A stretch of DNA of 64,000 nucleotides from Rhodothermales bacterium (GTDB lineage Bacteria > Bacteroidota > Rhodothermia > Rhodothermales > UBA10348): contig JANQQV010000020.1 of NCBI GenBank assembly GCA_028284865.1, forward strand, positions 372,001 through 436,000. The letters run 5' to 3'. Under the pieces are notes generated by a model. The model did no database searches and had not been told where the DNA came from. It saw only the letters and a list, made by a program, of their open reading frames with translations. How positions within the stretch are numbered: the first letter of the stretch is position 1; every line of letters starts with the position of its first letter. Position numbers and translations under genes: made by a program. Shown in pieces: positions 3,109 to 57,363 of this stretch.

Positions 3109-5691
3109 ATGTCATCGCAGCCATCGATCCCACCCTTCTGGCCACGACGCATCCTTCGAAGGAGCAGTCGCCGATATCTGGCTCGGCATCCCCTCCTCAT
3201 GGCCCTCTCCATCCTGGGGGTCGCCGTGGGCGTCGCTGTGGTTGTGGGTATTGATCTGGCGAATACAAGCGCTCGAACGGCCTTCAAGCTGTCCACGGAA
3301 ACCGTCGCCGGGAGAGCGACTCACGCTCTCGTGGCAGGCAACGGGCAGCTTTCAGACTCGGTGTTCACCAGCCTGAGAGTGGACGTCGGTTACCGTGATT
3401 CTGCTCCAGCCATTGAAGGATCTGTCCGCATGGGCGCGCCCGATGGGCAGGTCGTGCAGGTACTCGGGATTGATCCCCTGGCCGAAGAACCTTTCCGCTC
3501 CTTTACCGGCGGTCCCCAATCCAACCTGAATCTGGGCCGCTTCATGGGCCAAGTCCCCGCGGTACTCCTCTCTGAGCCCACCGCTTCTCGACTTTCCCTG
3601 TCGGAAGGGTCTTCATTCTCCGTGTGGAAAGAAGGTCGTGAAGTCGAGTTGGTTATCGAGGGCTTCCTTCCTTCTGACTCCGACCTGGACGCCGCAGCGC
3701 TTGATAATCTGCTGATCACGGATATCTCGACGGCTCAAGCCCTCTTGGCCATGCCAGGCGAATTGACCCGCATTGATCTCATTTTGCCGGACTCGCCCGC
3801 AGACGAAGCGGTCATTCAGGAGATCAAATCATGGCTACCTGCTAACGTCGAACTTCGGGCCGCGGCAACGCGAACCGGAACGCTCGACCAGATGACACGA
3901 GCCTTTTCCCTGAACCTGACGGCCATGAGCCTGCTGGCGCTGGTCGTAGGCATGTTCTTGATCTACAACACCATGACCTTCTCTGTCGTGCAGCGTCGGC
4001 CCCTCCTCGGCAGACTACGCGCGGTAGGGGTCACACGGCGGGAAATGGTGTGGATGGTGTTGGGAGAAGCGGCCATGATCGGCACCGTGGGGTCCATCAT
4101 CGGTGTGGCAGGTGGAGTGCTGTTGGGCAACGCCCTGGTTGGCCTCGTCACGCAAACCATCAATGACCTCTATTTCGTCGTACGCATCCGGGAATTGGAT
4201 CTCTCGATGTGGACGCTCCTCAAAGGTATGGCCGTAGGCCTTGGTAGCACGATTCTGTCGGCGTTGCCACCCGCTCGTGAAGCCACGCGAACCTCTCCAA
4301 GCATGGTGCTCAAACGGTCGACGTCCGAATCGAGTACCCGCGAGAAGATCCCCAGCCTTCTCATCGCAGGACTGGGCCTCTTGGTACTCGGGGCCGCCAT
4401 CCTGTGGCTGTCTGGCCAGAGCATCGCATGGAGCTACCTCGGTATCCTCGCGGTGATTCTTGCCTTCGCTTGTTGGACACCTCCATTGGTACTCTGGGGA
4501 GCGCGTTTGATGCGACCCGTTCTGGGTCGATTCTTCGGAATCATTGGCCGCATGGGAGCCTCCGGCATTGAGCAGTCCCTGAGTCGATCTGCCATAGCCG
4601 TTGTGGCCCTTACGATTGCGGTTTCAGCCACAACAGGCGTTGGAGTCATGGTGGACTCCTTTCGGACGACCGTGAACACCTGGCTGACGTATTCGCTTGA
4701 AGCGGACATCTACATCTCTCCTCCCGGGGATGTATTCCGCAGGAACGACGCCACCATTCTGAAAACGGCAGAAGAGAGCATCCGCACGGCCCCGGGCGTA
4801 GCCGAGGTCTACTCGGTTCGAACCGCTCGCGTCACGATCGATGGCCGCGAGTCGGATCTGATCGTCACGGAGCCCCGTCCTCGTGAACTTGAGCCCGGTC
4901 GGTACAAGAGTCGCATGTCGGGGGATCATCGCTCAGCCATGCGAGAGCGTGATGTAGTGATGGTTTCGGAACCCTATGCGTTCCTCTACAACGTGGATGT
5001 CGGCGATACGCTGGAGATTGTGACGAAAACAGGACCGACACCATTCGAAGTCGGTGCGATTTACTACGACTACGCTTCGGACCTGGGACTCGTGCAGATG
5101 ACCCGGTCGCGATACGACATTCATTTCGATGACCCACTGGTATCCGGTCTGGCTGTTTACGTCGAAACGGGCCTCGACCCTTCCGCGATCACAGAAGACC
5201 TCCGGACCCGCACCGCCTCCATCCAGGGGCTGAATATCCGATCGAACCGCGATCTGCGTCAGGCTTCGCTCGATGTGTTCGACCAGACCTTCACCGTCAC
5301 GACCGTCTTGCGACTGTTGGCCATCCTTGTGGCTTTTGTAGGCGTGTTGACCGCATTGATGGCCCTCCAGCTGGAGCGTTCCCGGGAGCTGGCGGTGCTT
5401 CGGGCCAACGGTATGACCCCAGGGCAAGTCGGACGGATGATCACCGTCCAGACCTCCTCGATGGGACTGCTGGCAGGGATTCTGTCTGTGCCACTGGGTT
5501 TGGTCCTTGCATGGCTGTTGATCTATGTGATCAACCAACGCTCGTTCGGCTGGACGCTCCAATTCCAGATCGACGGCGCGATTCTGCTGCAGGCTGTCCT
5601 CTTGGCCATTGTAGCTGCTGCTCTCGCGGCCATTTATCCCGCCATCTCCATGGGGAAAACGAACCCGACCGAGGCATTGCGAACAGAATGA
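3109..5691 (+). CDS. ABC transporter permease with two FtsX domains
   Basis: About 860 aa. After a basic N-terminus there is a first membrane segment (MALSILGVAVGVAVVVGIDLA), a large extracytoplasmic MacB_PCD-like region, a first FtsX four-helix block around residues 265-400, central helices, a second extracytoplasmic region, and a second FtsX block near the C-terminus (LLAILVAFVGVLTALMALQL; ends NPTEALRTE). Two FtsX units in one chain is the layout of AttF/AttG-like and LolCE-like exporters. ATG at 3109 is preferred over the track start at 2911, which lies deep inside the ATPase gene. Its TGA overlaps the ATG of the following lipoprotein gene (ATGA), which implies translational coupling. Confidence 0.88.
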   Translation: MSSQPSIPPFWPRRILRRSSRRYLARHPLLMALSILGVAVGVAVVVGIDLANTSARTAFKLSTETVAGRATHALVAGNGQLSDSVFTSLRVDVGYRDSAPAIEGSVRMGAPDGQVVQVLGIDPLAEEPFRSFTGGPQSNLNLGRFMGQVPAVLLSEPTASRLSLSEGSSFSVWKEGREVELVIEGFLPSDSDLDAAALDNLLITDISTAQALLAMPGELTRIDLILPDSPADEAVIQEIKSWLPANVELRAAATRTGTLDQMTRAFSLNLTAMSLLALVVGMFLIYNTMTFSVVQRRPLLGRLRAVGVTRREMVWMVLGEAAMIGTVGSIIGVAGGVLLGNALVGLVTQTINDLYFVVRIRELDLSMWTLLKGMAVGLGSTILSALPPAREATRTSPSMVLKRSTSESSTREKIPSLLIAGLGLLVLGAAILWLSGQSIAWSYLGILAVILAFACWTPPLVLWGARLMRPVLGRFFGIIGRMGASGIEQSLSRSAIAVVALTIAVSATTGVGVMVDSFRTTVNTWLTYSLEADIYISPPGDVFRRNDATILKTAEESIRTAPGVAEVYSVRTARVTIDGRESDLIVTEPRPRELEPGRYKSRMSGDHRSAMRERDVVMVSEPYAFLYNVDVGDTLEIVTKTGPTPFEVGAIYYDYASDLGLVQMTRSRYDIHFDDPLVSGLAVYVETGLDPSAITEDLRTRTASIQGLNIRSNRDLRQASLDVFDQTFTVTTVLRLLAILVAFVGVLTALMALQLERSRELAVLRANGMTPGQVGRMITVQTSSMGLLAGILSVPLGLVLAWLLIYVINQRSFGWTLQFQIDGAILLQAVLLAIVAAALAAIYPAISMGKTNPTEALRTE

Positions 5692-51764: not shown

Positions 51765-53801
51765 ATGGCGGAGAAGGTTCAATTCAAGCGCAATGTCGGC
51801 CTGTTCATGGCCGTGATGATTGGTATCGGCGCCATGATGGGGCCGGGCGTGTTCGCCTTGCCCAGTGTCGTAGCCATGGACGCCGGGCCGCTGGGCATTC
51901 TGGCCTATCTCTTCATGGGCCTGCTCACGCTGTTCACGGCACTGAGCTATAGCGAACTCGGTGCCGCTATCCCCATTGCAGGTGGCGGCTACTCATTCGT
52001 CAGCCGTGGACTTCCCGATCCTGTGGCCTTCCTGGCAGGGTGGTTCTTCTGGATCGGCAATACGCTTGCCTGCTCCCTCTACGTGGTCATTTTCGCCCTG
52101 ACCATCCGGGACTATTTCTTTCCGGACGCGAGCATCATCCTGATTGTGGTGGTCACAACGCTGGTCTTTACGGCGTCCAACCTGCGCGGACAGGTCGAAG
52201 CGCTCAAGATGATCACGCTCATGAACATCGTTGAGCTCGCAGTACTCATCGGGTTGGGCGTGCTGGGCGCTTTTGCCATTGAGCCGGCCAACCTCGAGCC
52301 GTTCGCACCCATGGGATGGGAGCCGCTGATTCCGACGATGGGGCTCATCTACATCTCCTACGTCGGTTTCGACCTGATCACCGTGGCCGCAGAGGAGATC
52401 ATCGATCCCGCCAGGAATATCCCGCGTGCCATATTGATCACGCTGGGTGTGGGCATCGTGATCTACGTGCTGGTGCTCTTTGTCATGATGGGCGTCGTGA
52501 ACTACACCGAGCTGGCCGAGACCGACACGCCGTTCATTTTCGTGGCCGACTTCCTGTTTGGCGGCTGGGGCCGCACGGCCGGCATCATTGCCACCATCAT
52601 GGCCAGTTTGTCAGCATTCTCTGTCACCCTCGGAGCGAGCTCCCGTGTCCTGTATGCTCTTGGACGGGACGGGCACTTCCCCGGCGTGTTCTCGCGGCTG
52701 CACACGCGGTTCAAGACGCCCCACATCGCCCTTTTCGTTTGTGCGGCGCTGGTCATGGTGTTTGGAGCCACGGGCATCGTCAACATTCTGGCCTCCGCCA
52801 GCAGCTTCGGCTACCTCGTCGCCATCGGCATCGTCAACTACGCGGTCATCGCGTTGCACAACAAGATGCCCAATCTCAGGCGGCCGTTCAAAGTGATCAT
52901 GTACCCGGTCGTTCCGGTGCTGGGTATCATCTCTTGTTGGTTTTTCGTACCCATGCTGGAGCCCCAGAGCCTGCTTCTAGGCGCTGCGCTGGCCGGTGTA
53001 GGCGGCATCCTCTACTTCGTGATGCCTGCCAACAGGGACCTGGTCAAACGATTACCGGAACTTGTTCACCACATCAAAACACGACTTCGCATCTGGAGGA
53101 GACCCAACATGCAGGTACTCATCATTGGAGGCGGCAATCAGGGGATGAACATTGCGGATCGACTCATCAAGCAGGATGAGTTCCGCATGATCTTCCGATC
53201 CGCCGAATACAAAGTGACGTTTGTCGAGAAAGATGAGGCTCGATGCGAAGAGCTGGAGCGGCGCTACAGCGTGCCCATTTTCCACGGTGATGGGACCAAG
53301 CTGGAGATTCTCGATCAGGTGGAACCCCAGAAAATGGATGTGGCCATTGCTGCTACCAATCACGACGATCGCAACACGATCATGGCGTTGCAAGCACAGC
53401 GGTTGGGCATTCCACGGGTGATTGCCATCGCCCGGGATCCAGACTACGTCGAGTTACTGAAGTCCAGAGGCATCGTGTGTATCAGCGCGCCGTACGCTAC
53501 GGCGGCAATGGTCGAGAATCACCTGGATCGTCCGGGAGTGGCCGATCTGTTCGAATTTGAATCCGGTGTGGCCAGTCTGATCGACATGCGCGTGCCAGAG
53601 AATGCACGCGTCGTCGGGAAGCGCATCAGCGATATCAACATTCCGTCGCAGTGCGTCGTTGCCGCCGTGATCAGGGACAAGGAGTTTGTCGTCCCGAGAG
53701 GCGATACGGAAGTCAAGGGAAACGACTACGTTGTTTTCGTAGGCCCCGTCGACTCGGTCCAGTCCGCTCACGCTGTGTTCTCGGAGTCCAAGACGGCTTG
53801 A
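51765..53801 (+). CDS. APC-family permease fused to an RCK/TrkA regulatory module
   Basis: 678 aa. Residues 1-~435 contain about 12 membrane helices of the amino acid-polyamine-organocation superfamily (NVGLFMAVMIGIGAMMGPGVFALP; PDPVAFLAGWFFWIGN; GASSRVLYALGRDGHFP). After a linker, MQVLIIGGGNQGMNIADRLI starts a Rossmann RCK_N/TrkA_N domain (~450-570, with VTFVEKDEARCEEL and FHGDGTKLEIL) and a TrkA_C domain ends the chain (PENARVVGKRISDINIPSQCVVAAVIRD). Ligand- or NAD-gated transport of K+ or amino acids is inferred. The ATG at 51765 is the family-like start. Its 3' end overlaps the convergent 2TM gene by 34 bp. Confidence 0.88.
   Translation: MAEKVQFKRNVGLFMAVMIGIGAMMGPGVFALPSVVAMDAGPLGILAYLFMGLLTLFTALSYSELGAAIPIAGGGYSFVSRGLPDPVAFLAGWFFWIGNTLACSLYVVIFALTIRDYFFPDASIILIVVVTTLVFTASNLRGQVEALKMITLMNIVELAVLIGLGVLGAFAIEPANLEPFAPMGWEPLIPTMGLIYISYVGFDLITVAAEEIIDPARNIPRAILITLGVGIVIYVLVLFVMMGVVNYTELAETDTPFIFVADFLFGGWGRTAGIIATIMASLSAFSVTLGASSRVLYALGRDGHFPGVFSRLHTRFKTPHIALFVCAALVMVFGATGIVNILASASSFGYLVAIGIVNYAVIALHNKMPNLRRPFKVIMYPVVPVLGIISCWFFVPMLEPQSLLLGAALAGVGGILYFVMPANRDLVKRLPELVHHIKTRLRIWRRPNMQVLIIGGGNQGMNIADRLIKQDEFRMIFRSAEYKVTFVEKDEARCEELERRYSVPIFHGDGTKLEILDQVEPQKMDVAIAATNHDDRNTIMALQAQRLGIPRVIAIARDPDYVELLKSRGIVCISAPYATAAMVENHLDRPGVADLFEFESGVASLIDMRVPENARVVGKRISDINIPSQCVVAAVIRDKEFVVPRGDTEVKGNDYVVFVGPVDSVQSAHAVFSESKTA
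53095..53111 (+). promoter_or_regulatory. Internal ribosome-binding site and in-frame ATG
   Basis: GGAGGAGACCCAACATG lies exactly at the boundary between the permease and RCK parts. A strong Shine-Dalgarno at good spacing before the in-frame ATG of MQVLIIGGGNQG could give a free RCK subunit of about 230 residues. Confidence 0.6.
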
Positions 53802-55752: not shown

Positions 55753-57363
55753 ATGCGTCGTATCTTTTTTCTATGCGCTTTTGTGCTCTTCGGCGGGTTG
55801 TCGAATCCCGTGCGCAATGACCGACCGAATGTCCTGATCATCATTTCGGATGACGTTGGACTGGACTCCTGGGAGCGAGCAGGCATTGGCAATTCGTTTG
55901 CCAGCACACCCAACCTGGACACCCTGGCCGATCAAGGGCTCACGTTCCGCAATGCGTGGACGACGCCGACCTGCTCCCCGACTCGAGCGGCCCTCCTTTC
56001 TGGCCTGATCGGCAGCAAGAACGGCGTACTGGAGGTAGGCGACCAACTGGACCCTTCCTTCGAGACCCTGTTTGAGGCCGTGGACCGGCACACGGGAGGC
56101 GAATACGCAATCGGTGCCTTCGGGAAATGGCACATCGGTCCCAACCGGGACCTCGACAATCCGAACGAACAGGGAGCGCACCATTTTCACGGATACATGG
56201 GTGGCGCGCCAAGTGACTACTCGAATTGGGATCAGGTCATCAATGGGTCTTCTTCGGAGACCACGACCTATCTCACAACCGACATCACCTCTGCGGCCAT
56301 CGACTGGAAACAGCAGCAGACCGGTCCGTGGATGATATGGATGGCGCACGCGGCCGCGCACACGCCGTTTCATGCGCCCCCTGATTCGCTCCACACGCGC
56401 ACATCCTTGGCAAGCGATCGGGATCAGTATCTGGCCATGATCGAGGCCTTGGACGCAGAGACCGGCCGGCTGGTTGATTCGCTTTCGCCCGCGGAAAGAG
56501 AAAACACGATCATCTTCTACGTCGGCGACAACGGGACGCCTGTTGGCGTTCTGGAAGGCTATCCGAATCGACGCGGAAAAGGCACCTTGTATCAGGGAGG
56601 AGTGAATGTGCCATTCATCGTTTCTGGTTTCGGGGTGACTCGCTCCGGTGAAATCGACCAGGCCCTTGTCCACACCATGGACATCCATGCAACGGTTCTT
56701 GATCTCCTCGGTGTGGAGCTGAATGGAGGGGTGAACAACAGCTTCAGCCTGGAGGAGCGCCTTCTCGATGCCTCCGGACGATCGCGTCCCTATCTGCTCA
56801 CGGAGACAGGAAATGGGGCCGACTACCAGGTGGCCATTCGCGACGATCAATACAAAGTGATCCGGCAATCCTCCGGCGAGACAACCTTCTTTGACCTCCT
56901 CGATGATCCGTTCGAGCGCACAGACCTCGCATCAATGACACTCTCGGCCGATCTGCAGTCCCGCTTGGACCAGTTGGTGGCCGAAGCCGACGTTCAGGTC
57001 AATGGATGGTCCTGCAATGATGGAATCCAGAATGGCGACGAAGATTCCATGACGTGTGCCGTGGAAACACGCACAGAGGAAGGCCTGCCGGGCTCAGGAT
57101 TTGAGCTGGGATCGGTCTATCCCAACCCGTTTGTCGATCAACTCACCATTGAATCGGAAAGCAGCATGCCGATTTCGCGAGTGACCATGTTCACGCTGAC
57201 GGGACAACGCGTTCAGTCGTGGGAGGCCTTTTCGCCCGAGCAAACAATGCAGCTGCACGTGAGCTCCCTTTCGGCAGGTATGTACGTGCTCCGCATTGAA
57301 AGCCACCTGGGCGGTCAGGGCAGCGTGCCGGCCGTGGAAACACGACTCGTCACGAAGCGCTGA
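55753..57363 (+). CDS. Sulfatase with T9SS sorting domain
   Basis: 536 aa. Signal peptide, then an alkaline-phosphatase-superfamily sulfatase: metal ligands in PNVLIIISDDVGLDSW, the formylglycine site CSPTRAALLSG (Cys of CxPxR to be converted by formylglycine-generating enzyme), GAFGKWHIG, and FYVGDNGTP with the Asp-Asn pair. A C-rich linker (CNDGIQNGDEDSMTC) and a T9SS sorting domain (VYPNPFVDQLTIES ... SAGMYVLRIES) follow. Predicted to remove sulfate esters from polysaccharides at the cell surface. Second sulfatase in the window, but the only one seen with a sorting domain. It ends convergently with the gene at 57385 (21 bp). Confidence 0.92.
   Translation: MRRIFFLCAFVLFGGLSNPVRNDRPNVLIIISDDVGLDSWERAGIGNSFASTPNLDTLADQGLTFRNAWTTPTCSPTRAALLSGLIGSKNGVLEVGDQLDPSFETLFEAVDRHTGGEYAIGAFGKWHIGPNRDLDNPNEQGAHHFHGYMGGAPSDYSNWDQVINGSSSETTTYLTTDITSAAIDWKQQQTGPWMIWMAHAAAHTPFHAPPDSLHTRTSLASDRDQYLAMIEALDAETGRLVDSLSPAERENTIIFYVGDNGTPVGVLEGYPNRRGKGTLYQGGVNVPFIVSGFGVTRSGEIDQALVHTMDIHATVLDLLGVELNGGVNNSFSLEERLLDASGRSRPYLLTETGNGADYQVAIRDDQYKVIRQSSGETTFFDLLDDPFERTDLASMTLSADLQSRLDQLVAEADVQVNGWSCNDGIQNGDEDSMTCAVETRTEEGLPGSGFELGSVYPNPFVDQLTIESESSMPISRVTMFTLTGQRVQSWEAFSPEQTMQLHVSSLSAGMYVLRIESHLGGQGSVPAVETRLVTKR

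Follow-up and report, generated by a model that had tools for sequence, protein, structure and literature searches.

A gene that joins an APC transporter to a C-terminal RCK domain probably holds two translation starts, one for the whole fusion and one, at the domain junction, for a free RCK subunit of 230 residues that would co-assemble with it. The gene lies in a 64,000-nucleotide stretch of a Rhodothermales bacterium (GenBank assembly GCA_028284865.1, contig JANQQV010000020.1, positions 372,001 to 436,000 of the forward strand). This whole stretch is called the window here, and its own numbering is used unless another locus is named. An earlier note, made from the letters alone, had proposed that an internal start releases a free RCK subunit from the fusion, on the precedent of the K+ channel MthK. 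A conserved Shine-Dalgarno (SD) sequence and ATG at the junction, together with the marks of selection on nucleotides, support this proposal, with initiation itself being what we infer from them. The precedent is sound as well: the internal start of MthK at Met107 is confirmed in the literature (PMC9440719, PMC2920069). In a literature search that covered few of the subscription journals, no description of an APC–RCK fusion came up, nor of an internal start within one.

A candidate start signal at the domain boundary

The fusion gene occupies 51765..53801 on the plus strand and encodes 678 residues from an ATG start, as judged by its open reading frame (ORF), its Pfam domains and homologues that start at the same residue. 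It is homology that places the start at ATG 51765, GTG 51606 being just the longest start that can be read mechanically. ORFs resembling genes flank the fusion on the opposite strand. Residues 1-448 (51765..53108, plus strand) make up the APC part, a LeuT-fold amino acid permease recognised by Pfam (AA_permease_2, residues 12-395, 149 bits), by its relation to GkApcT (5oqt, 6f34) and by an AlphaFold model of the whole fusion. Family and fold, the latter with a TM-score of 0.81 to GkApcT, normalised by target, place it in the APC superfamily. The remainder is an RCK domain by Pfam and Foldseek, with a Rossmann N-lobe (TrkA_N, residues 451-570, 77 bits) and a TrkA_C C-lobe (residues 607-672, 56 bits), both above the cut-off. 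In the window gene it carries a GGGNQG motif; among homologues position 455 is Ser in 15 of 53, and position 457 is not Gly in 12 of 53. In the AlphaFold model the APC part closes with a positively charged helix at 430-445, and strand beta1 of the RCK domain covers residues 448-454 (mean pLDDT 76, moderate).

At the join of the two parts the DNA reads ATC TGG AGG AGA CCC AAC ATG CAG. The ATCTGGAGGAGACCCAACATGCAG described in the earlier note is there, with GGAGG at 53095-53099, GGAGGAG running to 53101, and then an ATG at 53109-53111 that shares its frame with the long ORF ending at 53801. As the note had claimed, this ATG marks the domain boundary: it is residue 449, between helix 430-445 and TrkA_N and within the start of beta1. 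The putative internal SD, GGAGGAG (53095..53101, plus strand), falls on codons Trp444-Arg445-Arg446 and stands out by its retention in homologues, by a bias towards the arginine codons AGA and AGG (AGR) and by synonymous constraint. The candidate start codon, Met449 (53109..53111, plus strand), is surrounded by residues that vary among homologues (447, 448 and 450). An in-frame Met with a ribosome-binding site is thus found just before the RCK domain, the arrangement of an MthK-type dual-product gene. A second in-frame ATG with GGAGG, at 53145 and 12 codons past Met449, was considered and set aside as probably due to chance, Met being present there in 6 of 53 homologues.

Homologues were gathered by scanning one genome per species with peptide patterns that avoid the junction, which gave 63 loci encoding relatives, and whole-genome searches added more. 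From these relatives 54 distinct fused genes were taken, complete or nearly so and 58-92% identical. Their records are labelled Rhodothermales/Balneolaceae, Gemmatimonadota, Desulfobacterales/Deltaproteobacteria, Myxococcales, Acidobacteria, Planctomycetota, Latescibacterota and Bacteroidota, which are labels of metagenome-assembled genomes (MAGs), taken as given. One gene from a Deltaproteobacteria MAG (L051, 3001-5031) has in-frame stops at residues 115 and 460, reflecting decay or a sequencing error, and was set aside, leaving 53 intact homologues. On another contig (G041:C241) two APC-RCK copies lie side by side, at 1-1902 and 4317-4934, the latter truncated where the contig stops. Cultured bacteria such as Rhodohalobacter sulfatireducens WB101 and Salinibacter altiplanensis AN15 also have the gene.

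ATG449 is kept in all 53 intact homologues. The SD window holds GGAGG or AGGAG in 41 of them, compared with 5 of the 1056 in-frame ATGs elsewhere in these genes; an SD-like match of four bases is found in 51, and the ATG mostly follows 6-9 nucleotides (nt) past the SD. TGGAGG with ATG also recurs in three extra homologues outside the 53-gene set. An SD that failed to be conserved, which the earlier note had named as an outcome against its proposal, is therefore not what the homologues present. Judged from these sequences, the internal SD and ATG together are conserved far more than chance would allow, and the signal appears to span some eight bacterial phyla.

Related gene groups behave differently. 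In the same genome a Kef-like RCK fusion has no ATG at its RCK boundary, and a Kch-like channel has Met-Met there, without a strong SD. In 16 Kef-like homologues of this order we found no conserved ATG with SD, among 16 Kch-like homologues Met occurs in about half and a strong SD in none, and 13 APC paralogues with other C-terminal domains have no conserved internal SD. Among the gene groups compared, the internal signal is specific to the APC-RCK family.

Selection on nucleotides at the junction

The SD is encoded by differing peptides, such as Tyr-Trp-Arg-Pro-His, Leu-Arg-Arg-Met-Arg or Arg-Lys-Arg-Lys-Arg. At -18 to -7 nt, Arg codons divide 87:8 between AGA/AGG and CGN, as against 277:1557 elsewhere in the same genes. 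When the 38 columns in which Arg occurs 20 times or more are compared, column 446 is 100% AGR and column 445 is 89%, every other column reaching at most 50%; the neighbouring Arg columns are mostly CGN (Arg440 14% AGR, Arg450 6% AGR). Codon 446 is AGR in 49 of 49 Arg cases, although adjacent residues vary, the four other homologues having Lys. On a tree built without the junction, with a total of 8.5 substitutions per site, this codon shows zero AGR-to-CGN switches and 6 codon switches, compared with 16-25 in other columns with at least 48 Arg. The highest excess of synonymous conservation in the gene falls in the five-codon windows at 442-449 (+0.46; gene-wide standard deviation 0.11), and pairing with the anti-SD at the internal start averages -8.4 kcal/mol in the homologues, against -3.0 for their synonymous reshuffles. 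These comparisons offer direct evidence that selection acts on the SD nucleotides, not on the residues that they encode.

The two starts also differ in their initiation context. The main start (51765 in the window, and its counterparts in homologues) is almost devoid of an SD in most genes, with a mean anti-SD pairing of -2.6 kcal/mol, while the internal SD is strong, and the free RCK may be produced in excess over the fusion. Around Met449 the predicted mRNA structure is weaker than in the rest of the gene (-17.9 versus -27.1 kcal/mol per 90 nt), and accessibility is higher, with 0.50 unpaired against 0.42. As the window's own assembly yielded no 16S rRNA, a genome of the same order was used, and its 16S rRNA has the anti-SD CACCTCCT intact.

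Alternative readings and points of doubt

Can the signal be explained without a second protein product? One view is that the constraint acts on the protein only, W/R-R-P-x-M being a structural linker that provides a positive-inside anchor and the start of beta1, with SD and ATG as by-products. Residue 446 is indeed almost invariant, and an amphipathic helix that KefC has in this region likewise contains Arg residues (PMC11150392). Such a constraint is nevertheless hard to reconcile with AGR being confined to 445/446 when Arg 440 and 450 are mostly CGN, with the gene's top synonymous constraint at this site, or with CGN at codon 446 occurring in none of the 49 Arg homologues; nor do other membrane-fused RCK domains checked in the same genome have a Met at the beta1 start. 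We regard this view as very improbable. Likewise improbable is a translational pause without any initiation, in which ribosomes slow down on an SD-like sequence where the chain passes from membrane to cytoplasm, giving APC time to insert before RCK folds. Directly after the last transmembrane segment and the linker helix would be a sensible place to pause, but a pause requires no ATG, and here one is invariant, mostly at the same short distance from the SD, amid variable flanking residues. It would also leave the low mRNA structure unexplained, as well as the lack of the signal in APC paralogues with other cytoplasmic domains.

The history of the fusion suggests a further explanation, namely that the ribosome-binding site of a once separate trkA has passively survived as a fossil. 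In L011, a distant relative with about 31% identity, APC and TrkA are encoded by two neighbouring genes with some 28 nt between them, which makes a fusion of adjacent genes plausible and could account for the origin of the signal. However, passive retention should not outlast 8.5 substitutions per site without an AGR-to-CGN switch at codon 446, and this split relative has no SD before trkA (dG +0.3). The codon test largely refutes the fossil, whose probability we consider to be minimal. The split counterpart itself (L011 1462-3513, minus strand) is in a genome that falls into one genus group with the Salinibacter copy of the fusion (G048), and a USP-like ORF lies close to it on the opposite strand. 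Because its two genes stand so close together, a lost stop between neighbouring APC and TrkA genes may have created the fusion, with the second start kept under selection. Finally, internal initiation could be real without the free RCK joining its own fusion; it might serve a different K+ transporter or buffer a ligand. The genome does encode other RCK proteins (a TrkA-like tandem RCK of 466 residues, and Kch- and Kef-like fusions), and mixed assembly is conceivable. The free subunit nonetheless has the same sequence as the tethered domain, and RCK domains dimerise in the systems that PMC2920069 and PMC9440719 review, which leaves action elsewhere unlikely.

Some observations do weigh against a second start. 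Taken alone, the motif in the window sequence is weak evidence: among the 390 in-frame ATGs inside 36 long window ORFs that overlap little, 6 follow an SD of comparable strength (<= -9.0 kcal/mol), and reshuffling synonymous codons of the window gene alone gives p = 0.15 at the internal SD site. Just 6 of 35 window genes have an SD of <= -6 kcal/mol at their longest start, from which it follows that SD strength may count less in this lineage. The homologues are related and their counts are not independent, so that the tree-based figures are the safer ones. Two of them, from Bacteroidota proper (L054 and L055), hold the ATG, yet have the weakest SD pairing of the set, next to none at -1.0 and -2.0 kcal/mol; they form one clade and have an A-rich stretch where the SD would be. 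Bacteroidota proper rarely use SD sequences, and the weak pairing of this clade is in line with that. Lastly, removal of a putative internal start from Escherichia coli Kch had no effect, according to PMC2920069, which cites Kuo 2003.

The predicted free subunit and its counterparts

Initiation at Met449 would give a subunit of 230 residues with TrkA_N and TrkA_C (53109..53801, plus strand). By Pfam, AlphaFold (pLDDT 83.5) and Foldseek, the predicted piece is a complete RCK fold that begins at beta1, and its best Foldseek matches are TM1088B, TrkA and the RCK of MthK. Separate TrkA proteins likewise have beta1 at their N-terminus, for example the tandem-RCK gene of the same genome. We thus propose that the first start (ATG 51765, with weak or no SD) yields the 678-residue APC transporter with one C-terminal RCK, and that the second (ATG 53109, with the strong conserved SD at the junction) would yield the free and presumably stable RCK. 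On the cytoplasmic face this subunit would most likely pair with the tethered RCK to complete a dimer or ring. That assembly would regulate the APC transporter as a nucleotide or ion is sensed, in the way known for the Met107 product of MthK.

In MthK, initiation at Met107 provides four free RCKs, and these pair with the four that are tethered (PMC9440719; PMC3510474). The fusion shares with it a membrane protein with one C-terminal RCK and an in-frame internal start before that domain (PMC9440719, PMC2920069), and the domain predicted to be released has the same full RCK fold by Foldseek. The membrane part, however, is a LeuT-fold APC transporter and not a tetrameric K+ pore; it has no two-helix pore with a K+ filter, and the RCK domains are about 18% identical. 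The 4:4 arrangement need not hold here. The fusion may work like MthK but belongs outside the MthK family. Nor is it a Kef-type RCK fusion, given its APC membrane part and its internal SD with ATG. The dimeric Kef K+/H+ antiporters do have the same layout of a membrane transporter followed by an RCK, but their linkers lack a suitable internal start (PMC2920069), in agreement with what we see in the Kef-like genes of this order.

The nearest solved relatives of the RCK part are TrkA/KtrA and the two-subunit TrkA ring TM1088A/B (PMC4380455), by sequence 4g65, 4j9u and 3l4b and by fold 3l4b_C and 4j9v. These work as separate cytoplasmic RCK subunits, as the predicted free RCK would, but come from genes of their own, whereas here the RCK is fused and would also be made free from the same gene. 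For the APC part the nearest solved relative in both sequence and fold is GkApcT, a bacterial cationic amino acid transporter homologue, whose solved chains (456-471 residues) are nearly filled by the APC match and, unlike the fusion, leave no room for an RCK. The logic of an in-frame internal start that supplies extra, co-assembling copies of a C-terminal domain is also known from SctQ/YscQ-C and Cas11b (PMC4295842, PMC11899642), proteins that are unrelated to APC-RCK and have unrelated functions. No conserved gene neighbourhood pointing to the APC substrate was found. Elsewhere in the window, a sulfatase-like ORF (55753-57363) has a C-terminal stretch (SVYPNPFVDQLTI...GMYVLRI) that resembles a type IX secretion sorting domain.

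It is a tentative thought that mixed RCK assemblies, in which free subunits outnumber tethered ones, control a widespread family of LeuT-fold amino-acid-type transporters. As an example, an APC dimer would need two fused and six free RCKs for a standard octameric ring, a stoichiometry that would fit a weak main start and a strong internal SD. If the second start is real, the MthK trick of making tethered and free gating subunits from one gene would reach beyond K+ channels to a secondary transporter with the amino-acid-permease fold, across some eight phyla, in genes for which annotation would show the long product alone. A conserved synonymous signature of this kind would then be a general route to second products concealed in domain-fusion genes, those with RCK included.
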